DNA of 62,795 nt from Promethearchaeota archaeon. Its GTDB lineage: Archaea > Asgardarchaeota > Lokiarchaeia > Sigyniarchaeales > SOKP01. The stretch is from NCBI GenBank assembly GCA_016839915.1, contig JAEOTH010000174.1:1-62795 (forward strand), in the 5' to 3' direction. The position numbers and the translations under genes are program-made. The notes under the pieces are model-generated. The model saw nothing but the letters and a program-made list of their open reading frames with translations, was not told the origin of the DNA and made no database searches. Of the stretch, positions 10,482 through 27,548 are shown piece by piece. Each line of letters opens with the position of its first letter. Within the stretch, counting starts at the first letter, position 1.

Positions 10482-11414
10482 ATGGTTCGACATCTATTAA
10501 AAATCTCTGATTTTTCAGAAGAAGAGTGTGAGAAAGTTATAAATAAATCAATTGAGATTAAGGAAAATCCTAAAAAATTTAGCTCAACTTTAGAAGGAGA
10601 AACTCTTTTGATGTTATTTGAAAAACCTTCTTTAAGAACGCGAATATCTTTTGAAACTGGGATGCAACAATTGGGCGGTCATGCAATTTTTTACTCAATA
10701 AAAGATTCTCCCCTTGGTAAAAAAGAAAACATATCAGATACAGCTAAAGTGGCCTCTCGATTTGTTAATATAATTGCAGCTCGTGTTTTTAAACGACAAG
10801 ACATCTGGGATCTGGCAAAATTTGCTGATGTCCCAGTAATAAATATGCTAGATGATTTCGCACACCCTTGCCAAATTCTAGGAGATTTTCAGACTATAAA
10901 AGAGAAAAAGAAAAGTTTAGAGAATATGAAACTCTCTTACTTTGGAGATGCGTATAATAATGTTACTTATGATTTAATGCGGATGTGTGCTATATTTGGC
11001 TGGAGAATGGACATTGCCTGCCCTAATGCTCCAGAATATTCACCTGAACAAGCTGTTTTAGATGAGGTTTCAGGTTTGTCTAAGGATACTGGTGCAGATG
11101 TAAAAGTGGTTCATGATGCTCTAAAAGCTGCTAGTGAATCAGATGTTATATATACTGATAGCTGGATGAGTTATGGAATACCTCAAGAGCAGGAAGAAGA
11201 ACGAAAAAGAGCATTTATGCCTTTTCAAGTTACTTATTCTATTATGGAAGCCGCAAAACCAGAAGCTATATTTATGAATTGTTTACCTGCAATGAGGGAA
11301 TATGAACAAACCGCGGAAGTGATTGATGGACCTCAATCAATTGTGTTTGATCAGGCGGAAAATAGGCTCCATATTCAAAAAGCTATTATGTTGTTTTTAC
11401 GAGATAAATTTTAA
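10482..11414 (+). CDS. argF: Ornithine carbamoyltransferase family protein
   Basis: This 310-residue transcarbamylase has a carbamoyl-phosphate loop SLRTR at 50-54, HPCQ at 128-131 and a C-terminal NCLPA...TAEVIDGPQSIVFDQAENRLH segment. Ornithine carbamoyltransferases interconvert ornithine plus carbamoyl phosphate with citrulline. Together with the carbamate kinase at 15128 and the ornithine aminotransferase at 16045, the likely direction is catabolic: citrulline is phosphorolysed and ATP is made from carbamoyl phosphate. Two motif positions differ from the textbook enzyme. The ornithine-loop SMG reads SYG (TDSWMSYGIP), and HCLP reads NCLP. The true amino acid substrate is therefore open, though these variants may be lineage-normal. 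No arginine deiminase was found in the window. Confidence 0.8.
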   Translation: MVRHLLKISDFSEEECEKVINKSIEIKENPKKFSSTLEGETLLMLFEKPSLRTRISFETGMQQLGGHAIFYSIKDSPLGKKENISDTAKVASRFVNIIAARVFKRQDIWDLAKFADVPVINMLDDFAHPCQILGDFQTIKEKKKSLENMKLSYFGDAYNNVTYDLMRMCAIFGWRMDIACPNAPEYSPEQAVLDEVSGLSKDTGADVKVVHDALKAASESDVIYTDSWMSYGIPQEQEEERKRAFMPFQVTYSIMEAAKPEAIFMNCLPAMREYEQTAEVIDGPQSIVFDQAENRLHIQKAIMLFLRDKF

Positions 11415-15127: not shown

Positions 15128-16042
15128 ATGAAGACTCTAATTGTTGCTCTTGGTGGAAATGCTTTAATAAAATTTGGAGAAGAAGGTACTACAGAAGAGC
15201 AATTTAGGAATTTAAGAGTTCCAATTAGCCAAATTGCGGAATTAGCAAGAGAATACAACATTATTATAACTCATGGTAATGGCCCACAAGTAGGAAATCT
15301 TTTACTGCAACAGGAAGCAACTGAATTTGTGTCAAAAAGACCTTTACAAATATTAGTAGCAGAAACTCAAGGTCAGATTGGGTTTATGATTGAGAGTACG
15401 TTAGACGAGGAACTCATGAAAATTGGGCTTGATGAAGAAAAGCTTTTCCTAACAATCCTAACATATGTAAAAGTTGATCCAAATGATCCTGCATTTAAGA
15501 ACCCTACAAAACCAATTGGTCCAGCTTATCCTGTCCGTACAAAACGAGGGCAAGTGAAAACAGCTAAGGGTTGGCGTCAAGTTGTTCCCTCTCCCAAACC
15601 AATAAAAATCTATCAATGGCGTGAAATTAAGAAGCTAATGGAATTGGGTAGTTGGATTGTAATAGCTTGTGGAGGTGGTGGTATACCCGTTATAAAGGAA
15701 GCTAAAAAGTTATATGGTGTCGAAGCGGTAATAGATAAAGACCTTGCGAGCTCTAAATTAGCTGAACAAGTTGGAGCAGATATTCTTCTTATTGCTACTG
15801 ATGTTGAGAAAGTTGCACTTAATTATGGGACATCTAATCAAAAAAATTTGGAAAATCTTTCAATATCTGAGGCAAAGAAGTATTTAGAAGAAGGACAATT
15901 TCCAACTGGAAGTATGGGCCCAAAAATCCAAGCAGTAATAAAGTTTATGGAAGCAGGAGGAGAAAAAGCAATAATAACTTCTATTGAAAAAATAAAAGAA
16001 GCGTTAAAAGGAAACGCTGGTACTCAAATAATTTTAGACTAA
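15128..16042 (+). CDS. arcC: Carbamate kinase
   Basis: This 304-residue amino-acid-kinase-family protein has VALGGNALIKFG at residues 5-16, HGNGPQVGNLLLQQEA, a central ACGGGGIPVI segment and a C-terminal GSMGPKIQAVIKF. All are hallmarks of carbamate kinase, which makes ATP from carbamoyl phosphate and ADP. It completes a catabolic set with the carbamoyltransferase at 10482 and the ornithine aminotransferase that converges on it with a 2 bp gap. The length is normal. The region upstream (15020-15127) is short and AT-rich with a TTTTAAAT box about 57 bp before the ATG. Confidence 0.93.
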   Translation: MKTLIVALGGNALIKFGEEGTTEEQFRNLRVPISQIAELAREYNIIITHGNGPQVGNLLLQQEATEFVSKRPLQILVAETQGQIGFMIESTLDEELMKIGLDEEKLFLTILTYVKVDPNDPAFKNPTKPIGPAYPVRTKRGQVKTAKGWRQVVPSPKPIKIYQWREIKKLMELGSWIVIACGGGGIPVIKEAKKLYGVEAVIDKDLASSKLAEQVGADILLIATDVEKVALNYGTSNQKNLENLSISEAKKYLEEGQFPTGSMGPKIQAVIKFMEAGGEKAIITSIEKIKEALKGNAGTQIILD

Positions 16043-16044
16043 TT

Positions 16045-17307
16045 TTATTGCTTAACAAACACTTTTTCAATAATTTCAATTGCCCAATCAATATCATCCT
16101 TGGTAATAACCAAAGGTGGGGCAAATCGAATAGTTGTAGAATGGGTATCTTTTGCTAAAATTCCATTATCCTTGAGTTCTTCAACTATTTTTCTCGCATC
16201 TTCTGTAAATTCAACAGCAATTAACAACCCTTTTCCTCTAATTTCTTTAATTGGAATTCTAGTTTGCTTTTCGGCAACTTCTTTTAATCTTTTTATAAAA
16301 TACGCCCCCATTTCTTTCGCTCGCTCAGCAAGATTCTCACGTAAGTGGATATCTATTGATTTCATACCAATAGCTGCAGCTAAAGGATTTCCACCAAAAG
16401 TGCTTCCATGAGTTCCTGGGGTAATAACATCTGGACCAATCACGTCTTTTGTACTTACACATCCAGAAACGGGATAAACTCCTCCTCCAAGTGCTTTTCC
16501 TAATAATAACATATCTGGTTTTACATCTTCATGATCACAAGCAAAAAATGCTCCAGTTCTGCCAAACCCGGTTTGTATTTCGTCTAAAATCATTAAAACA
16601 TTATATTTTGTACAAATCTCTCTAACCTTTTTTAAATATCCGTCTGGAGGAACTTTTACCCCCGCTTCTCCTTGAATAGGTTCAACTAAAAAAGCAGCAA
16701 CCTTTTCTGGGCCAATTTCAAGTATTGTATTTTCTAGTTCTTCAGCATTTCCATAAGGAATGATTATAAAACCAGGGGTATAAGGTCCAAAATTACCATA
16801 ATACCGTGATGCTGAAATATCAGAACTAAAACCTACAATTGTTATTGTTCGCCCATGGAAGTTATCTCGGCAAACAATTATTTTAGCTTCATTTTTGGGA
16901 ATTTTTTTCTTGATATACCCCCATGCTCGCGCCACTTTTAAACCAGTCGATACTGCTTCTGTTCCAGTATTCATAGGAAGAGACATTATACCAGAATCAC
17001 CAGGATCATTGATATGAGGTCCAATTACTTCAGCTAACATTTTTAAGAAAGGTCCCATCATATTATTATGAAATGCACGAGAAGTTAGTGTTACTATACT
17101 TGCTTGTTCTTTTAGAGTAGCTACAATTTCAGGATGACAATGACCCGCATTTTGACTTGAGTATGCTGATAAACAATCCAAATACTTTTTCCCTTCTGGA
17201 TCATAAACCCAAACTCCTTCAGCTCTAGAAATTACAACTGGAATCGGATGATAGTTATGAGCAGCATATTTATTATCCATTTCAATAAATTCTTTCGAAG
17301 TTGGCAT
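16045..17307 (-). CDS. rocD: Ornithine aminotransferase (class III PLP aminotransferase)
   Basis: This 420-residue class III aminotransferase most resembles ornithine-oxo-acid aminotransferase. It has the N-terminal NYHPIPVVISRAEGVWVYDP, LDCLSAYSSQNAGHCHP, MNTGTEAVSTGLKVARAW, the cofactor Asp in LMILDEIQTGFGRTG and the Schiff-base lysine in LLGKALGGGVYPVSG. It would convert ornithine plus 2-oxoglutarate to glutamate semialdehyde and glutamate in the cytoplasm. It is convergent with the carbamate kinase gene (2 bp apart), so it has its own promoter. Ornithine released by the carbamoyltransferase is the obvious substrate. Other omega-amino acids are possible for this family. Confidence 0.88.
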   Translation of the reverse strand: MPTSKEFIEMDNKYAAHNYHPIPVVISRAEGVWVYDPEGKKYLDCLSAYSSQNAGHCHPEIVATLKEQASIVTLTSRAFHNNMMGPFLKMLAEVIGPHINDPGDSGIMSLPMNTGTEAVSTGLKVARAWGYIKKKIPKNEAKIIVCRDNFHGRTITIVGFSSDISASRYYGNFGPYTPGFIIIPYGNAEELENTILEIGPEKVAAFLVEPIQGEAGVKVPPDGYLKKVREICTKYNVLMILDEIQTGFGRTGAFFACDHEDVKPDMLLLGKALGGGVYPVSGCVSTKDVIGPDVITPGTHGSTFGGNPLAAAIGMKSIDIHLRENLAERAKEMGAYFIKRLKEVAEKQTRIPIKEIRGKGLLIAVEFTEDARKIVEELKDNGILAKDTHSTTIRFAPPLVITKDDIDWAIEIIEKVFVKQ

Positions 17308-20386: not shown

Positions 20387-22348
20387 ATGGAAAAAAAAGA
20401 TCTTAAGTTTCTTAGAAAAATAGGTATTTTAATTCTATGTCTCACATTTTCGCTCACATTTTTATTTGTAAATAAATCGGTAAGCTATTCGAGGTATGAA
20501 CGTGTTCAATTTCAATCAGCTGGAGCAACACTATATGCAAATTTATATTATCCATCAAAGCCTCTTGCCTTTCAGGAAAATAGGCCTTTGATTATTTATT
20601 GCCACGGCATTGGAAGCCAGAGAGATTTTGATCTTAGAATTCCAATTGAACTCACTAAACGTGGTTTTTATTTAGCAGCATTAGATTATCAAGGACACGG
20701 AGAGAGTACTGGTAGCATTAATAATATGGTTCCAATTGAAAATATTCCAGCAGTAGCCCAAGACTGTTCTAGGTTGCTAGACAAATTGGAGACAATGCCA
20801 TTTTACTCAAATGTAAATACCTCTCAGATTGGTCTAATCGGTCATTCACTTGGAGGGATGGTTGTCTTAATGAACCAAGCGTTAGATGATCGATTCAAGG
20901 TAACAGTCGCATGGGCTCCAGCTGTTAACTTCGATCCATCCCTGTTAGGAATTACCGATCCAGATTGGATTGCTTATATTCCTGTTTCTATACTAAATAT
21001 GACAAATTCAGAGAATCTTTTAATTATCATGCATGTCAATGATGAAGTTTTAGATTTTACTGAAAATGCCATACAAGCTCAATTATTAACAAATTGTACT
21101 GTAATTCCTGTAACAGGGGTCTTAATAGGAGGAGGTCACCAGCTATTTTCAGATGGAGTAATTATTGAATCTATAAATTGGTTCGAAGCCCATTTTTTTA
21201 ACTCTGAAACATTGAATGGGCCAATTCGTGTTTCTTTCATGATTAATTATATATTTCTATTTCTAACGCTTGGAATATTAATCGCAATAGTATTATCTTT
21301 AACTTCATATACCTCAAAATATTTTACATTAGAGGAAAAAGAAGAAATAACTGTCAAATCAAAAAAGAAGCACTCTTTTAAAAAAGTTAAGCAAAGCATA
21401 AAACTAATTAAGATAGGTCTTTACTCTGGAGCATTTGTTATAAATTGGTTATTATTTGAATATTATTTTGGTTTGATAGGTATTTTCTACGCTTCACTTA
21501 TAATTACATTGATTTATTTAATAGGGACCTTAAGTATTCGTTTTAGGAAACTTATGAAAAAAGAAGAGAAATCTAATATTAAAGAGTTTATCATTTCCAA
21601 ACTTCGGTTGAAACATTTCATTTATTCAATGTTTTTCACAATTTACTTTCTTGTAGTTTCAATTCTTTTTCTAATTTCTTATCCATCAGCACCATTACCA
21701 CAATCACCGTTCCTGGATGGAGCATTATTTTTTATGATCATATTTTTAATTGCAAGCATAACTTTATCATTTTCCTTTGGATTTGTCCTGTTTTATCTAG
21801 ATAAAAAACAGCAAATTAGGTTGAAGTTTAAAATTAATATAAGAAATATTAAGATTCAAAATAAACGTCTTGTAAGAATTTTTCTTTATTCATTTGCCTG
21901 TTCTTTCTATTTTATTATAATATACTTAACATTTTCATTTTCATATCCATTTGCTTTTATGTGGCCTTCAAACTATATCAACTATGTATTAACTGAGATT
22001 GCTCTACCTATTTTATTCTCAATGGAGCTTCTTTACAGGAAGCTAATCTATCCGAATTTATCATTTCTGAATGAAAAATCTAAACGAAGAGCTATAATAA
22101 TTATTGCTGTTATTATTCAAATCACTCTCATGTTTTTAACTCAGACATGGTCTTTTTTTCCATCAGTTCTATTTACCTATTTTATGTTTTTATTTGTAAT
22201 TATTCAGAATACCTTAATTTATGAGCATACTCATAATTTTCCTGCGGTAGTGCTAAGTTCTTTTAATATTATACAAATATTTTTCGCTGCGGTTATATCC
22301 AATGCTTTAGGAATTGGATCTGCCTTGCATTCTTTTGTTAGCCTATAA
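20387..22348 (+). CDS. Membrane-anchored alpha/beta hydrolase with multi-helix C-terminal domain
   Basis: This 653-residue protein starts with one membrane helix (about residues 11-30). An alpha/beta-hydrolase domain (about 35-280) follows, with the oxyanion-type strand YCHGIGSQ, LDYQGHGESTG and the nucleophile elbow GHSLGG near residues 157-162. A second half of about eight membrane helices completes the protein (for example VSFMINYIFLFLTLGILIAIVLSL, FIIIYLTFSFSYPFAFMWPSNYI). The hydrolase domain should face outside the cell, judged from the single N-terminal helix. The substrate is unknown; lipid, ester or peptide are possible. The fusion with a long membrane module is uncommon in bacteria. 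It appears monocistronic, with tldE upstream and the RAM transporter downstream. Confidence 0.75.
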   Translation: MEKKDLKFLRKIGILILCLTFSLTFLFVNKSVSYSRYERVQFQSAGATLYANLYYPSKPLAFQENRPLIIYCHGIGSQRDFDLRIPIELTKRGFYLAALDYQGHGESTGSINNMVPIENIPAVAQDCSRLLDKLETMPFYSNVNTSQIGLIGHSLGGMVVLMNQALDDRFKVTVAWAPAVNFDPSLLGITDPDWIAYIPVSILNMTNSENLLIIMHVNDEVLDFTENAIQAQLLTNCTVIPVTGVLIGGGHQLFSDGVIIESINWFEAHFFNSETLNGPIRVSFMINYIFLFLTLGILIAIVLSLTSYTSKYFTLEEKEEITVKSKKKHSFKKVKQSIKLIKIGLYSGAFVINWLLFEYYFGLIGIFYASLIITLIYLIGTLSIRFRKLMKKEEKSNIKEFIISKLRLKHFIYSMFFTIYFLVVSILFLISYPSAPLPQSPFLDGALFFMIIFLIASITLSFSFGFVLFYLDKKQQIRLKFKINIRNIKIQNKRLVRIFLYSFACSFYFIIIYLTFSFSYPFAFMWPSNYINYVLTEIALPILFSMELLYRKLIYPNLSFLNEKSKRRAIIIIAVIIQITLMFLTQTWSFFPSVLFTYFMFLFVIIQNTLIYEHTHNFPAVVLSSFNIIQIFFAAVISNALGIGSALHSFVSL

Positions 22349-22417: not shown

Positions 22418-23740
22418 ATGCAAAACAAGCTGATTATTAATATAATTTTGGCAAATTTACTATGGAGCTTTATTCCAGTAATTGTAGAAGATTTATTTTT
22501 AGAAATATCCATCTTAATGGTGATTTTTTTAAGATTTCTTATTTCTGGATTTGCATTATTAATTATAGCTATTATACTTGTAATAATTAATAATAGAATA
22601 TCACACAATGCATCAATATCATTTAGATTTCTATTTAAAAATTTATTACATAAGAATAGAAGATTTTTTGACATAAAAAATATCACATATTACTTTTATT
22701 TAGGGTTTTTTGGTATAATTCTTAACATTATATTTTTCTTTTTAACCTTAAAGACTACTTCAATTACATTTACGATGATAGGATTTCTTTTAAGTGTCAT
22801 TTTTATTGCTTTTTATGAAAAAGGGGTGAATTTTGAGAAATTTGACATCTTTAAGGTACTTTATATCATAATTTTATTTTTTTCTATTATTATCTTGGTA
22901 TTTGTGGGTAGTACAGGAGCCGCATTACAAGGTAGGCCTCTGATGTTAAATGGGGTAATTTATTTACTCATTTTTAGTATATCAATTTCTTTTCTCTACA
23001 TTGTCATAAATAGAGATGCATATTCAGGAGAAGAAATTAAAATAATTAATAAAAATAAGAATTACAAAATACCTCGATTTCTCATTAAAATGTCAATATC
23101 TTTTTTAATTGGGGTAATTTGTATGATCCCAATATTACTATTCATATATGTATTACCAATCGAAACTGATTTAACCAATGAAATTTCAACTTTTTTTGCT
23201 CAGTTTGGAAGTTTATTTTTAATTTTAGGTAGATGGGAATTAATTTTTTTGATAGTTTTTTCAACAATTATCCCATATCTATTAATTTTTGTAGCAAATG
23301 TTAATTGGAAATCCACAGATTTAACTTATAGTCAATGGAGTAGTATTTTAAATTTAATAGATCCTATGGGTTCCATTATTTTTTCAGTAATTTTAGTCAA
23401 CGAGTATTTTCCTCTTGAATTATTGATTATTATAATATTTTTATTAGTTTTTACGTTCGTATTTAGATATTCTCATGAAGTTAAGAATTTAGTTCAAGCA
23501 GTAATATTAGTGAGATTGAAAAAAGGTTCAACTGATAGAACAGCCTTACGTATTTTTAAATATTACGGAATAACATCGATATTTGTCTTAATTGGAACTC
23601 ATGATTTGTTATTAAAAGTAAAAATAAGTTCTATAAAAGATTTTTATAGACTCATCAATATCAGATTGAAACCTTTAAAAGATATTGAAGATATTGAGAT
23701 TTTATTTATTAATAAAGTTATTAAAACACAAACTTATTAA
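22418..23740 (+). CDS. DMT/EamA-type transporter with fused C-terminal RAM (Lrp/AsnC effector) domain
   Basis: This 440-residue protein begins with a DMT-superfamily membrane part of about ten helices (residues about 1-355; it opens NIILANLLWSFIPVIVEDLF, has FLRFLISGFALLII, and ends with a second EamA-like half containing YSQWSSILNLIDPMGSIIFS). The last ~80 residues (from LVQAVILVRLKKG) read as an Lrp/AsnC-type RAM domain. They match the beta-alpha-beta-beta-alpha-beta pattern in which a small molecule, usually an amino acid, is bound between subunits (ITSIFVLIGTHDLLLKVKISS, then IEDIEILFINKVIK). The next gene encodes a free RAM domain. The position beside the lysine aminomutase genes suggests transport of lysine or a product, gated by effector binding. 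The substrate is inference. Confidence 0.78.
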   Translation: MQNKLIINIILANLLWSFIPVIVEDLFLEISILMVIFLRFLISGFALLIIAIILVIINNRISHNASISFRFLFKNLLHKNRRFFDIKNITYYFYLGFFGIILNIIFFFLTLKTTSITFTMIGFLLSVIFIAFYEKGVNFEKFDIFKVLYIIILFFSIIILVFVGSTGAALQGRPLMLNGVIYLLIFSISISFLYIVINRDAYSGEEIKIINKNKNYKIPRFLIKMSISFLIGVICMIPILLFIYVLPIETDLTNEISTFFAQFGSLFLILGRWELIFLIVFSTIIPYLLIFVANVNWKSTDLTYSQWSSILNLIDPMGSIIFSVILVNEYFPLELLIIIIFLLVFTFVFRYSHEVKNLVQAVILVRLKKGSTDRTALRIFKYYGITSIFVLIGTHDLLLKVKISSIKDFYRLINIRLKPLKDIEDIEILFINKVIKTQTY

Positions 23741-23759
23741 ATGAGAGATGGCTTAAGAT

Positions 23760-24005
23760 ATGGCAATAAAGGCAATCATGTTATGTAAGTTAGGTATCAG
23801 TGTAATAAAACCTGTAATTGAAGAATTGAAAAAGATTCCCCAAATCACTAAAGTGTTGTCTTTAACAGGGGATTATGATGCTTTAGCTGAAATAATAGTA
23901 GAAACACCTGAGGAATTATATGAGATATTTGCAAATAAAATCGATATGATTGATGGAATCACAGCTTCTAATACCCATATGGTAATGAAAGAATTTACAA
24001 AATAA
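23760..24005 (+). CDS. Stand-alone RAM (Lrp/AsnC ligand-binding) domain protein
   Basis: This 81-residue protein is a single RAM domain without a DNA-binding helix-turn-helix. It has AIKAIMLCKLGI, then helix VIKPVIEELKKIPQITKV, the ligand-loop LTGDYDALAEIIV, a second helix (PEELYEIFANKI) and the final strand NTHMVMKEF. Such proteins oligomerise and bind amino acids. The gene starts 19 bp behind the transporter gene that also ends in a RAM domain, so the two could form mixed assemblies on the membrane or share an effector. It converges on kamE, the end of the lysine 5,6-aminomutase operon. A direct role in transcription is unlikely without a partner. Confidence 0.88.
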   Translation: MAIKAIMLCKLGISVIKPVIEELKKIPQITKVLSLTGDYDALAEIIVETPEELYEIFANKIDMIDGITASNTHMVMKEFTK

Positions 24006-24017
24006 TTATAGAAGCTT

Positions 24018-24096
24018 TCTTATAAGTCTAATCATAAAAAATGCAAATTTGTTTGAATATCAAAACTTCTTTAAAAAAATTTTGAGACTTATAAGA
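24018..24096. repeat. 12-bp inverted repeat between converging genes
   Basis: TCTTATAAGTCT-type arms (24018-24029 and 24085-24096) are perfect reverse complements of each other, separated by 55 AT-rich bases. The right arm overlaps the kamE stop codon. The position between two convergent genes suggests a bidirectional terminator or an RNA-processing stem. The long loop is unusual, and the function is inference. Confidence 0.5.
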
Positions 24097-24874
24097 TATT
24101 TCTTTTAACCAGTTGTTTTATAGCAAAAGATGCTACTATTTCAGCGTAAGTCCCTGGACCAAAACCAGCGTCATATCCTAATTCCTTTGCTAATTCATTA
24201 TTTATTCTAGGACCACCACAAATAAGGACAACCTTATCTCTTATTCCTTCCGCTTCCAGAAGATCAACTAATTGAGTTAGATTTTTTACATGTATATCTT
24301 TCTGTGTAACTGTCTGGGAAACAAGTAAAACATCAGCGTTGAGTTCAATTGCTTTTTTAACAAATTCTTCATTCGAAACTTGACTACCTAAATTGAAAGC
24401 CTTGATCATTTCATAGTTCTCAAGACCATAATGACCAGCAAAACCTTTCATATTAATAATAGCATCAATTCCTACAGTATGAGCATCTGTACCCGTAGAT
24501 GCCCCAAGTATAACTAGCTTACGTCCAATTTTCTCTTTGATAAATGAATTAATCTGTTCCTTTGACATAACATCAACTTCTACAGTATCTATTTTAATTT
24601 TAGTATAATTGATTGTATGAATTGACTTTCCATAGATTACAAAAAATGTAAATCCTTTGTCTAATGCTGATAAATAAGCAATTTCTGGATCTTTTAACCC
24701 CATTTTTTCTGCGAGTTCTTTAGCTGCTTTAATTGCCTTTTCATCATGATTAATAGGAAGAGTAAAACTTACTTGTATTTTTCCATCATTCATTGTATCT
24801 CCATATGGTTTAATTCTTGTTAAATCAAGATCCTTATCAAGTACTTCCTTTTCAATAGAATATGGATCTCCCAT
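24089..24874 (-). CDS. kamE: Lysine 5,6-aminomutase beta subunit (B12-binding)
   Basis: This 261-residue subunit carries the cobalamin-binding domain of lysine 5,6-aminomutase. The B12 motif DxHxxG is seen as TDAHTVGID near residues 129-136, followed by MLLVS- and GG-type Rossmann strands (ADVLLVSQTVTQKD, KVVLICGGPRINNELAKELGYDAGFGPGTYA). With KamD it moves the terminal amino group of beta-lysine to carbon 5, using adenosylcobalamin and PLP. The start lies 1 bp beyond the kamD stop, and the sequence AAAGGAGGGTG within the last kamD codons is a strong ribosome-binding site, so the subunits are translationally coupled. It is convergent with the RAM gene. Confidence 0.95.
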   Translation of the reverse strand: MGDPYSIEKEVLDKDLDLTRIKPYGDTMNDGKIQVSFTLPINHDEKAIKAAKELAEKMGLKDPEIAYLSALDKGFTFFVIYGKSIHTINYTKIKIDTVEVDVMSKEQINSFIKEKIGRKLVILGASTGTDAHTVGIDAIINMKGFAGHYGLENYEMIKAFNLGSQVSNEEFVKKAIELNADVLLVSQTVTQKDIHVKNLTQLVDLLEAEGIRDKVVLICGGPRINNELAKELGYDAGFGPGTYAEIVASFAIKQLVKRNIL

Positions 24875-24875
24875 T

Positions 24876-26474
24876 TTAACACCCTCCTTTTGTTAATTCT
24901 TTAATCATAAGATCAATAAATGGATTAAAATAGTCAGGCTCTTTTCTAAATACACCATCTAATCCTTTACCTCCATCTATTGGTCTTTTAATATTAGCAA
25001 AGATTCCCTTTTCAATTGTTCTAAATAAACCTTGTTTTTCGATTTCTTTTAACAAATTATATGCTTTATTTAGCACCTCATCAACTCGTGTTTCCATTAT
25101 TCCCCCTTTCTTAAATACTAGTTCTTCACTAATAGATTTCATATTGTTGAATATATAGCGAGCATTTTCAATAGATAAAGCTCTATCTGACATGAAAGGA
25201 GTATGTATTGCTTCTGTTAACATACCAAGGAGGTGTATCCTTTGATTTGTCATTATTGTTATCATATTGAAAAGAGCATCTTGAATATGGCCCTTAAATA
25301 TATTCCCTGTCATATGTTTTGTTGGAGGCATGAATTTAAGTGGGCTATTCGGAAAAATCTCACGTGCCATCTGTGCTTGAGCTAATTCATATAAAAAACC
25401 ATTTTCCAAATCAGGATTCATTTCAAAAGCATGTCCTAAACCCACTTGCTCTTCTTTTAATCCAGCAAGTAAGGCAAATTGCTCATTTATAAATTCAGAA
25501 GCTAGGACCGTATGAGCTGCTTCATAAGCATCAGCAGTAGTAAGATAATTGTCTTCGCCAGTATTAATTATTACTCCCGCATAAGCATTAATCATTCTCG
25601 AAAAATACTGGTCAATTATTGTTCTTTTCATGTTGATATCTCTAAATAGAATCCCATAAAGAGCATCATTAAGCATCATATCCAGCCTTTCAAAAGCACC
25701 CATAGCTGCAATTTCTGGCATACATAATCCAGAACAATAATTAGTTAATCTAATATATCTGCCTAATTCTTCACTTACTTCATCTAAAGCTTTTCTCATA
25801 AGTCGAAAATTTTCTTGAGTCGCATAAGTTCCACCAAATCCTTCAGTAGTTGCACCATAAGGCACATAATCGAGTAGACTTTGGACAGTAGATCGAATGA
25901 CAGCAATTACGTCAGCACCTTGTCTTGCTGCTGCTTGAGCTTGAACAACATCTTCATAAATATTTCCTGTAGCCACAATAACATATATTAATGGGCCCTC
26001 TTTATCACCATATTTTTGAAGTAGTTTTTCTCTCTTTCTTTTATTTTGAGATACTTTTATTAATGTCTCTTGAGCAATGAGATTAATTGTTGCTTTTATT
26101 TCAGAAATCCCTCTTAATGGTAATTCTGATAAATTTAATTCTTCTTTACTAATTTTTTCTGCAATTTCTTGTGGAGATAGATTAGTGTGTAGAATAGCAT
26201 TGCCAATATGAGTAGCAATCCCAATACCAAGATGATTCCCTTGTTTAATATTATCCACAACAATATTAGGAAGTGGTACATCAAATTCATCCATACCATC
26301 TATCCCTAGCAATCTACAAACTGTTCTTTCGATAGCTGTTGTAGTATGATTATCAATAAATTTTTGGGTCTCAAATGCGATTTTTTTAGCTGTACCTCTA
26401 GCCTTTCGCACTAATGAAAAATTTAAATTCAATTTACTTTCTAATTGCATACGAATTTCAGTCAATTTTTTCAC
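24876..26474 (-). CDS. kamD: Lysine 5,6-aminomutase alpha subunit
   Basis: This 532-residue protein is the large TIM-barrel subunit of lysine 5,6-aminomutase (D-lysine/beta-lysine 5,6-aminomutase). The family pattern is clear throughout, for example NHLGIGIATHIGNAILHTNLSP, VPYGATTEGFGGTYATQENFR, CMPEIAAMGAFERLDMMLNDALYG and KFMPPTKHMTGNIFKGH. The length equals that of the clostridial enzymes (about 515-535). It lies upstream of kamE and 45 bp downstream of the KamB-like gene on the same strand. The products are the core of the B12-dependent lysine fermentation route, so a B12 source is required by the cell. Confidence 0.95.
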   Translation of the reverse strand: MKKLTEIRMQLESKLNLNFSLVRKARGTAKKIAFETQKFIDNHTTTAIERTVCRLLGIDGMDEFDVPLPNIVVDNIKQGNHLGIGIATHIGNAILHTNLSPQEIAEKISKEELNLSELPLRGISEIKATINLIAQETLIKVSQNKRKREKLLQKYGDKEGPLIYVIVATGNIYEDVVQAQAAARQGADVIAVIRSTVQSLLDYVPYGATTEGFGGTYATQENFRLMRKALDEVSEELGRYIRLTNYCSGLCMPEIAAMGAFERLDMMLNDALYGILFRDINMKRTIIDQYFSRMINAYAGVIINTGEDNYLTTADAYEAAHTVLASEFINEQFALLAGLKEEQVGLGHAFEMNPDLENGFLYELAQAQMAREIFPNSPLKFMPPTKHMTGNIFKGHIQDALFNMITIMTNQRIHLLGMLTEAIHTPFMSDRALSIENARYIFNNMKSISEELVFKKGGIMETRVDEVLNKAYNLLKEIEKQGLFRTIEKGIFANIKRPIDGGKGLDGVFRKEPDYFNPFIDLMIKELTKGGC

Positions 26475-26519: not shown

Positions 26520-27548
26520 TTAATTTGCTCCGAGATCAAACACGGGAACATCAAGATTTTTTTTCATTAAATCTAAAAAGACATTCTTTTCAAATTCATA
26601 TCCCAATGGAGAAGTTGGGTTTATAGTAACAGCAATAACATTTATGGGATTCAAAACTTTCAGAATTCCACCTTTTTTTTGTAACTTGTTCTTAATTTTT
26701 TTACTTAAGAAAAGTTTGGTAGGGTCTTCCACTAAAAAGGTTAATCCTTTATATTTGTCAGTAAGACTCATTAAATCTTCTAATAACTTATCGGTGAGTG
26801 CACCTTTTATTACAATATATTTTGAATTTTCATCAAGAGCACTAGAAATGTCATTAGCTGCATCTAAAGAAGTTAAAATATCGAGAAATTTTATAGAGTT
26901 TCTATTATCTATGATTCCCACATTTGATTTTCTTAGTATCTCATGTGAGATGTCTCTTATTACTTTATCTCCTTCACGTTCTAAATTTAATAATTCGATT
27001 GTATGAACTGTTAAATTAATAACATTTTGCATATCTTCTGATACAGAAGCACCTGTTGAAAGTATTGTAGCGTCAGATATAATAGGAGTTGCGAATGATC
27101 TCCTGTCAAAAGCACCATCGATGAGAATCAAATCACAACCTAGATTTTTTAATTCTAGACATATTTCTTGTAAATATTTGTTAATTGAAGGACCTGCTAA
27201 TTCGATAAGACCATCATTAATTGCCTTTAATATTAAAATTTCCCCTAATGGAGTGTTAAATTCTGTTTTCTTTAAAATTTCCATTTTGACTTCACTTGCT
27301 TCAAAACTCTGTCTAGCCGTTGCTACAATTGTACCTTTTTTTATCAGTATTCGCGGTTTAGGCAACTGTGTAATCACATCATATTTTTCTCCATCTCTTC
27401 CTATAGAAGTCAAACCAAGTTTATAACCTTTTAAATTCTTTATGATATAATTTAGAGTAGTAGTTTTACTGACATTTTTCGCGAGGCCAATAATTGAGAT
27501 AATTCTATACTTACTAATTTCATTCAAAAAATTTGTCATGAAGTCCAT
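26520..27548 (-). CDS. kamB: KamB-like lysine 5,6-aminomutase reactivase subunit (P-loop protein)
   Basis: This 342-residue protein has a nucleotide-binding start (RIISIIGLAKNVSKTTTLNY, about residues 15-34), followed by TSIGRDGEKYD, LILIDGAFDRRSFATP and LSTGASVSEDMQNVINLTVHT. This matches what I know of the KamB protein encoded beside clostridial kamDE, which helps repair inactivated aminomutase together with the MutS-like KamC. Here the usual Walker A glycine before Lys is serine (NVSKTTT). No kamC-like gene is present in the window. It sits directly upstream of kamD in the operon. A fragment nearly identical to its P-loop region is found at 29217-29292. Confidence 0.8.
   Translation of the reverse strand: MDFMTNFLNEISKYRIISIIGLAKNVSKTTTLNYIIKNLKGYKLGLTSIGRDGEKYDVITQLPKPRILIKKGTIVATARQSFEASEVKMEILKKTEFNTPLGEILILKAINDGLIELAGPSINKYLQEICLELKNLGCDLILIDGAFDRRSFATPIISDATILSTGASVSEDMQNVINLTVHTIELLNLEREGDKVIRDISHEILRKSNVGIIDNRNSIKFLDILTSLDAANDISSALDENSKYIVIKGALTDKLLEDLMSLTDKYKGLTFLVEDPTKLFLSKKIKNKLQKKGGILKVLNPINVIAVTINPTSPLGYEFEKNVFLDLMKKNLDVPVFDLGAN

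Follow-up and report, generated by a model that had tools for sequence, protein, structure and literature searches.

Transporters with a cytosolic sensor are a known kind of system; the putative one that we describe here has an unusual reach and possibly two origins. On the transporter side, the closest described proteins are DMT/EamA-type permeases of solved structure (5i20, presumably YddG; LicB, 7paf; and 5y78), which are like our permease in its Pfam EamA match and in the fold recovered by Foldseek, and in none of which we know of a ligand-sensing tail. A literature search over titles and abstracts found no description of a DMT permease with a ligand-sensing domain, in agreement with the original prediction for this locus, which held that no permease of such a form had been described. 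Among the DMT families covered in a paper on the transporters of Asgard archaea, four are uncharacterised; that paper mentions no RAM domain or AsnC, and EamA and Lrp occur in its references only (PMC7997004). Among transporters of other families, the methionine importer MetNI has a cytosolic C2 domain that binds ligand and gates transport, as covered in a review on the control of transporter activity, the main text of which names no EamA, DMT, RAM or Lrp (PMC10710835). Our locus likewise places a domain of a ligand-binding type, predicted to be cytosolic, on a transporter, a likeness drawn from architecture only; MetNI, however, is an ABC transporter with a different domain, carried on the ATPase, whereas here a RAM domain is carried on a DMT permease. 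To our knowledge, the sensor domain of MetNI comes without a separate free copy.

On the sensor side, RAM domains are described as forming dimers and higher assemblies with amino acids bound between dimers, and the physiological role of stand-alone RAM proteins has been called unclear (PMC2995911). In the same source, the full regulator FL11 (PH1519; structures 2cyy and 2znz) responds to Lys, Arg and Gln, and the lone RAM protein DM1 forms a mixed octamer with it in vitro, with ligand between the dimers (PMC2995911). The stand-alone RAM proteins DM1, STS042 and TTHA0845 have the same fold and length as the lone RAM protein encoded here, but the named partner of DM1 is, in vitro, the DNA-binding regulator FL11, whereas ours is paired with a transporter gene. 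Lrp/AsnC regulators, of which FL11 is the nearest, share the RAM domain with our two gene products, yet neither product gave a Pfam match to a DNA-binding (helix-turn-helix) domain. A comparable pairing of a RAM-bearing regulator with the gene of an EamA-like transporter is found in PA2577/PA2576 of Pseudomonas aeruginosa, where an Lrp/AsnC regulator controls the transporter gene by transcription (PMC8707732); unlike the pair studied here, that system is transcriptional and unfused.

The window, by which we mean the whole stretch of DNA that was analysed (62,795 nucleotides), corresponds to contig C153 in a genome of 3.65 Mb. Its gene at 22418..23740 (+) encodes a protein of 440 aa that we identify, from Pfam, predicted fold and orthologs, as a RAM-tailed DMT/EamA-type permease. 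Residues 6-161 (22433..22900, +) match EamA (PF00892) at 6.5e-8, with 33.4 bits against a cut-off of 28.2, and residues 363-431 (23504..23710, +) match the RAM domain (AsnC_trans_reg, PF01037) at 2.9e-6, with 27.5 bits against a cut-off of 25; the tail submitted alone to Pfam matched PF01037 at 1e-7. The fused domain keeps G393 and D396 of the G..D loop, for which the lone RAM described next has G37 and D40. The original prediction, made from the sequence alone, had read this gene as an EamA-type permease ending in a full RAM domain, which proved to be the case, and had placed that domain at residues 355-440; a PF01037 match is indeed present there, with the narrower extent given above. The next gene, at 23760..24005 (+) and 19 bp downstream, had been read as a lone RAM domain, and this too was borne out, as were the coordinates of both genes: residues 16-78 of its 81-aa product match PF01037 at 9.5e-15, with 54.7 bits against a cut-off of 25. 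Based on Pfam, fold and co-occurrence, we consider this lone RAM protein a dedicated partner of the permease. The permease, with an open frame of 443 aa, is longer than the genome's other EamA proteins, for which the frames measure 147-347 aa.

AlphaFold2 models, calculated for single chains, fit these assignments. For the permease (39-row alignment; mean pLDDT 88.8, pTM 0.86), helices extend up to residue 357, and RAM-like strands and helices lie beyond the last membrane helix, with pLDDT values of 81-89 in the tail blocks and below 50 in the final 7 residues. When queried with Foldseek, the membrane part matched DMT structures with E-values of 4.5e-4 to 6.4e-3 and TM-scores of 0.62-0.67 over the target (top match: E 4.5e-4, TM 0.63 over the target, rmsd 6.9), among them the triose-phosphate translocator 5y78, the nucleotide-sugar transporter 5oge, LicB (7paf) and 5i20. 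The tail matched the Lrp/AsnC RAM domains of PH1519 and DM1 with an rmsd of 0.8 over 73 columns. The lone RAM was modelled with a pLDDT of 92.9 and matched DM1 (2e1a), STS042 (2zbc) and TTHA0845 (2djw) with TM-scores of 0.87-0.89 over the query and rmsd values of 0.9-1.7; PH1519 is the solved structure closest to it in sequence. We read the model of the permease as a DMT fold of probably 10 transmembrane helices, with some doubt between 10 and 11 due to an extra, weakly hydrophobic helix (251-270) between TM7 and TM8. Lys and Arg are more frequent in the loops on the N-terminal side than on the other side; taken together with a count of 10 helices, we read this as placing the RAM tail in the cytosol. 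Ten positions are invariant in the 39-row type A alignment (the type is defined below), including R39, E140, E206 and E354, the last at the junction between TM10 and the RAM domain. We suggest that R39 may contact the cargo, and that E140, E206 and E354, which we place on the cytosolic side, may couple to the basic tail.

We then asked how far this architecture extends. A search of 65 genomes of the family with the permease protein gave 33 near-full-length matches, the window's own included, and 3 copies cut by contig ends; the other 32 matches have 44-85% identity, the copy in G001 being interrupted by stops. Because near-full-length matches recur in 33 of 65 genomes, a chance read-through can be excluded. 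Genome searches covered the window's phylum (227 genomes), which we take, from contig titles, to be the Asgard archaea, along with one contig scan using the alignment of the window's type of permease (type A), which returned 34 loci, all from Lokiarchaeota or Lokiarchaeia. Counting full and contig-cut copies by hand from ranked match lists, as was also done for partner RAMs and marker genes, RAM-tailed permeases occur in at least 134 of the 227 genomes: type A in at least 49, and in at least 85 a second set, type B, of which the RAM tail matches type A and the membrane part does not. No genome among the matches listed had both types, and the type B copy of G170 consists of an N-terminal piece only, without the tail. 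Pfam analysis of 10 distant permeases gave a RAM match over the cut-off in 7 and below it in 3, while EamA failed to exceed the cut-off in 9: of the 7 type B proteins, 1 had an EamA match over the cut-off, 5 below it and 1 none, and of the 3 distant type A proteins, 1 had a match below the cut-off and 2 had none.

The profiles of types A and B, compared with hhalign, showed no similarity outside the RAM domain, and their membrane parts alone were aligned with a probability of 0.2%. This leaves either two fusions of RAM domains to different permeases or a divergence past recognition. In a tree of RAM domains (171 rows by 88 columns, few for a count of fusions), a single branch with an SH-aLRT value of 95 separates the type B tails from the rest; the type A tails need 3 label changes, and the lone RAMs of type A and of type B need 2 each. 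A plasmid search with one type B protein and a search of viral contigs with the type B alignment each gave no relative.

The free RAM gene follows the permease closely through this distribution. A lone RAM adjacent on the same strand was found, among the matches listed, in 123 of the 134 genomes with a RAM-tailed permease (44/49 for type A and 79/85 for type B), where any lone RAM match beside the permease was counted, and the partners in G004 and G045 come from the search with the partner RAM only. The search for the same pair in other Asgard genomes, which the original prediction had proposed as a check, was thus positive. The exceptions in type A include three genomes of f4, in which the lone RAM lies 2.1-4.7 kb downstream, and G160 (also f4), for which no lone RAM was found on its 9-kb contig; in G040, which has a permease and no partner RAM, the gene is cut by the contig end. 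Of the 6 type B genomes without an adjacent lone RAM, five have the permease at a contig end and one is unreadable. Within the family, the partner RAM was found, among the matches listed, in 35 of the 36 genomes that have the permease but in only 1 of the 29 that lack it, and it stands apart from the other RAMs listed for these 65 genomes (at least 109 bits versus at most 52 bits). One exception to the pairing is G012, a genome 78% complete, which kept a partner RAM (L268, 1347-1592, -) with no permease found beside it or by protein search.

Adjacent pairs are separated by up to 116 bp in type A; in type B the spacing ranges from short overlaps to gaps of 42 bp, with a gap of 284 bp at one broken copy. 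The lone RAM lies downstream of the permease in type A and in f28, and upstream in f10, f12, f17, f18 and f22-f25; lone RAMs flank the permease on both sides in f11 and f14, and two follow it in f3. The order thus varies while adjacency is kept, a pattern that speaks for two genes working together and less for a gene string handed down by common descent. The triples of f11 and f14 (lone RAM, permease, lone RAM) are found at L178, L228 and L235, and three lone RAMs of these triples form a group of their own in the RAM tree. In G047, a second, broken copy of the partner RAM lies just past the intact one (C15:33858-34061).

Several features of the sequences bear on function. The glycine of the ligand loop is kept in all tails examined (44/44 in type A and 19/19 in type B) and in every lone RAM that could be read at that site (65 of 66), and the aspartate is kept in 42/44 and 17/19 tails and in 44/46 and 20/20 lone RAMs of type A and type B, respectively. 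Okamura (2007) is said to provide a structural code by which the ligand of a RAM domain can be read from its sequence. In Sa-Lrp, for which D102 and K126 are named, D102 in strand beta-3 is a predicted glutamine contact, and the variant with alanine at this position bound DNA less strongly when glutamine was present (PMC3584215); the loop aspartate of our proteins is likely the equivalent of D102. The two kinds of RAM domain also differ in charge: across 63 loci (44 type A and 19 type B), the tails average +4.9 and the partner lone RAMs -4.7, the exceptions being four tails that are neutral or acidic and one lone RAM at 0. A larger type B set gave similar means (+4.8 for 84 tails and -5.4 for 81 lone RAMs), two lone RAMs of f10 averaging only -0.5. 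Other RAMs in the loci examined range from -5 to +4, with a hand average of about -1.4 over 19 distinct rows. Closeness to the membrane could account for the basic tail.

In five comparisons within a genus, in some of which dS exceeded 1, dN/dS ranged over 0.08-0.17 in the membrane part, 0.23-0.34 in the tail and 0.02-0.19 in the lone RAM. These values indicate that the RAM tail is under purifying selection, although it evolves faster than the membrane part, and the lone RAM was the most constrained part in three of the five.

We consider it somewhat more probable than an even chance that the two genes make up one two-part, RAM-gated transport system, in which a DMT-superfamily permease with a cytosolic RAM tail is served by a dedicated free RAM subunit. 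What we observed in its favour are the domains and their predicted folds, a fusion that is conserved, and a pairing that stays tight in both permease types although the gene order varies. In such a system, the basic tail and the acidic free RAM would associate into a mixed RAM assembly at the cytosolic face, with which the shared RAM ring of the original prediction would fit. At the interfaces between RAM domains, the conserved G..D loop would bind an amino acid or a metabolite related to one, and the ligand-bound assembly would shift in shape or size so that the permease opens or closes, as in MetNI. As to the direction of transport, amino-acid exporters are found among the known EamA-type permeases, although the DMT protein LicB is, to the contrary, an importer. 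For this reason we mildly favour an overflow valve that opens on build-up of the sensed compound; the alternative is an importer that trans-inhibition shuts. To the more specific proposal, that a mixed ring of DMT permease and free RAM senses an amino acid and gates transport, and that it was independently assembled on two Asgard DMT scaffolds, we give slightly less than even weight. If true, mixed-ring gating would be a new class of ligand-gated secondary transporter, and would give stand-alone RAM proteins their first clear role. The pairing as such already offers the lone RAM a concrete, testable role and suggests that amino-acid sensing may act directly on a secondary transporter rather than via transcription, in a system with parts small enough for expression and assay.

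Other explanations for the pair were weighed against this one. The permease might instead sequester regulators at the membrane, as AmtB does with GlnK in the model case, capturing the lone RAM or other RAMs of the Lrp family, so that the output would be gene regulation and not gating. The window's genome does have other RAM proteins, some of them Lrp-like, and lone RAMs are reported to be able to co-assemble in vitro with full Lrp regulators (PMC2995911); against this, the partner RAM is set apart by score from the family's other listed RAMs, adjoins the permease, and has no match to a DNA-binding domain. We regard sequestration as unlikely to be the principal role, bearing in mind that it and gating are not mutually exclusive. 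A little less probable still is that the RAM tail is a ligand-free module for oligomerisation or stability, with the lone RAM capping the assembly. The capacity of RAM domains for dimers and higher assemblies would fit such a module, as would the weaker constraint on the tail than on the membrane part (by dN/dS) and the report that some Lrp-like regulators answer to no amino acid tested (PMC2995911), but the glycine and aspartate of the loop are kept in nearly all tails and lone RAMs examined, and a purely structural role would not necessarily call for that. That the permease is an artefact, with two unrelated genes joined by misassembly or by a frameshift, is a reading for which we found no evidence; we rate it as having a negligible chance, and effectively rule it out, given that the open frame recurs in many separate assemblies and in two permease types, including the single-contig genomes G029 and G173.

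The original prediction had further proposed a transporter for lysine or a related product, on the grounds of the neighbouring genes, and this proposal, which can be widened to products of lysine fermentation and to ornithine, is taken up here. Convergent with the pair in the window are the genes for lysine 5,6-aminomutase (kam): the beta subunit (24089-24874, -), the alpha subunit (24876-26474, -) and the reactivase (26520-27548, -), in a lysine block that also holds a lysine 2,3-aminomutase and a BKACE enzyme. Upstream are an ornithine carbamoyltransferase (10482-11414, +), a carbamate kinase (15128-16042, +) and an ornithine aminotransferase (16045-17307, -), such that the pair sits between an ornithine/arginine block and a lysine block. 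The kam genes directly follow the pair in all 6 loci of the window's genus (g1), and lie within the stretch examined in 5 of 13 loci of g8 and 1 of 4 loci of g9, many of these being short contigs, for 12 loci altogether; in G052, they are farther away on the same contig as the permease. These three genera also have a carbamate kinase gene close to the pair, in 16 loci, and the nearest solved sequence to the lone RAM, PH1519, is FL11, with its reported response to Lys, Arg and Gln (PMC2995911). In f6, a homocitrate-synthase-like gene comes after the pair, which would also fit.

The wider distribution argues against such a link. In 2x2 tests that ignore phylogeny, and among the matches listed, genomes of the family with and without the permease did not differ in lysine 5,6-aminomutase (21/36 versus 15/29, Fisher p = 0.62), in carbamate kinase (21/36 versus 17/29, p = 1.0) or in ornithine aminotransferase over the cut-off (20/36 versus 14/29, p = 0.62), the latter two enzymes having been compared in the 65 family genomes only. 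A phylum-wide search with the alpha subunit of the aminomutase found it, among the matches listed, in 0 of 85 type B genomes, and 18 of the 43 kam genomes of the phylum had no type A permease, again among the matches listed. Lysine as a general function was rejected on these aminomutase results, and ornithine on the lack of association of carbamate kinase and ornithine aminotransferase with the permease in the family. The conserved placement beside kam genes that had been expected is confined, in the stretches examined, to the six loci of g1 and some of those of g8 and g9, so that the lysine and ornithine/arginine neighbours belong to the local setting and are no conserved component of the system. 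We thus regard it as improbable that the permease carries lysine or ornithine in connection with the aminomutase genes, more so than either of the two alternatives for the RAM domains discussed above.

Neighbours elsewhere are of other kinds. When those of 68 loci and the window were clustered, the widest cluster besides the pair itself was ABC-transporter-like and reached 6 lineage groups. Pfam analysis of 30 flanking proteins outside the kam-type loci revealed no common theme: they include a CLC channel with CBS domains, Cdc6, a family-4 glycosidase, an FlpD/ferredoxin protein, an MFS transporter, a U32 peptidase and a PAS kinase, and two read as amino-acid enzymes, homocitrate-synthase-like in f6 and AstE/AspA-like in f12. 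In many lineages, as far as the annotated neighbours show, the pair therefore occurs without any amino-acid gene context; with this the lysine claim falls, and a RAM-gated transporter does not.

Some further genes deserve mention. The homocitrate-synthase-like gene of f6 (G145; L149, 7270-8463, -) has the same orientation as the pair and follows it at a distance of about 0.6 kb. In the window, the gene immediately before the permease encodes a 653-aa alpha/beta hydrolase with seemingly many membrane helices (20387-22348, +), and it occupies the same place in only some relatives. The RAM-tailed proteins of f19 (L257-L260, in G136-G139) were considered as candidate permeases and rejected, as they read as non-permeases: they are proteins of about 470 aa, one of them cut at a contig end, that read like homocitrate/isopropylmalate synthases and have a C-terminal RAM domain, in other words a RAM tail on an enzyme. 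Finally, the window's genome encodes a 297-aa protein that reads as an Lrp-like helix-turn-helix and RAM domain placed behind a response-regulator receiver (L006, 1420-2313, -), and a 434-aa protein that reads as two tandem Lrp-like regulators (L011, 732-2036, -).
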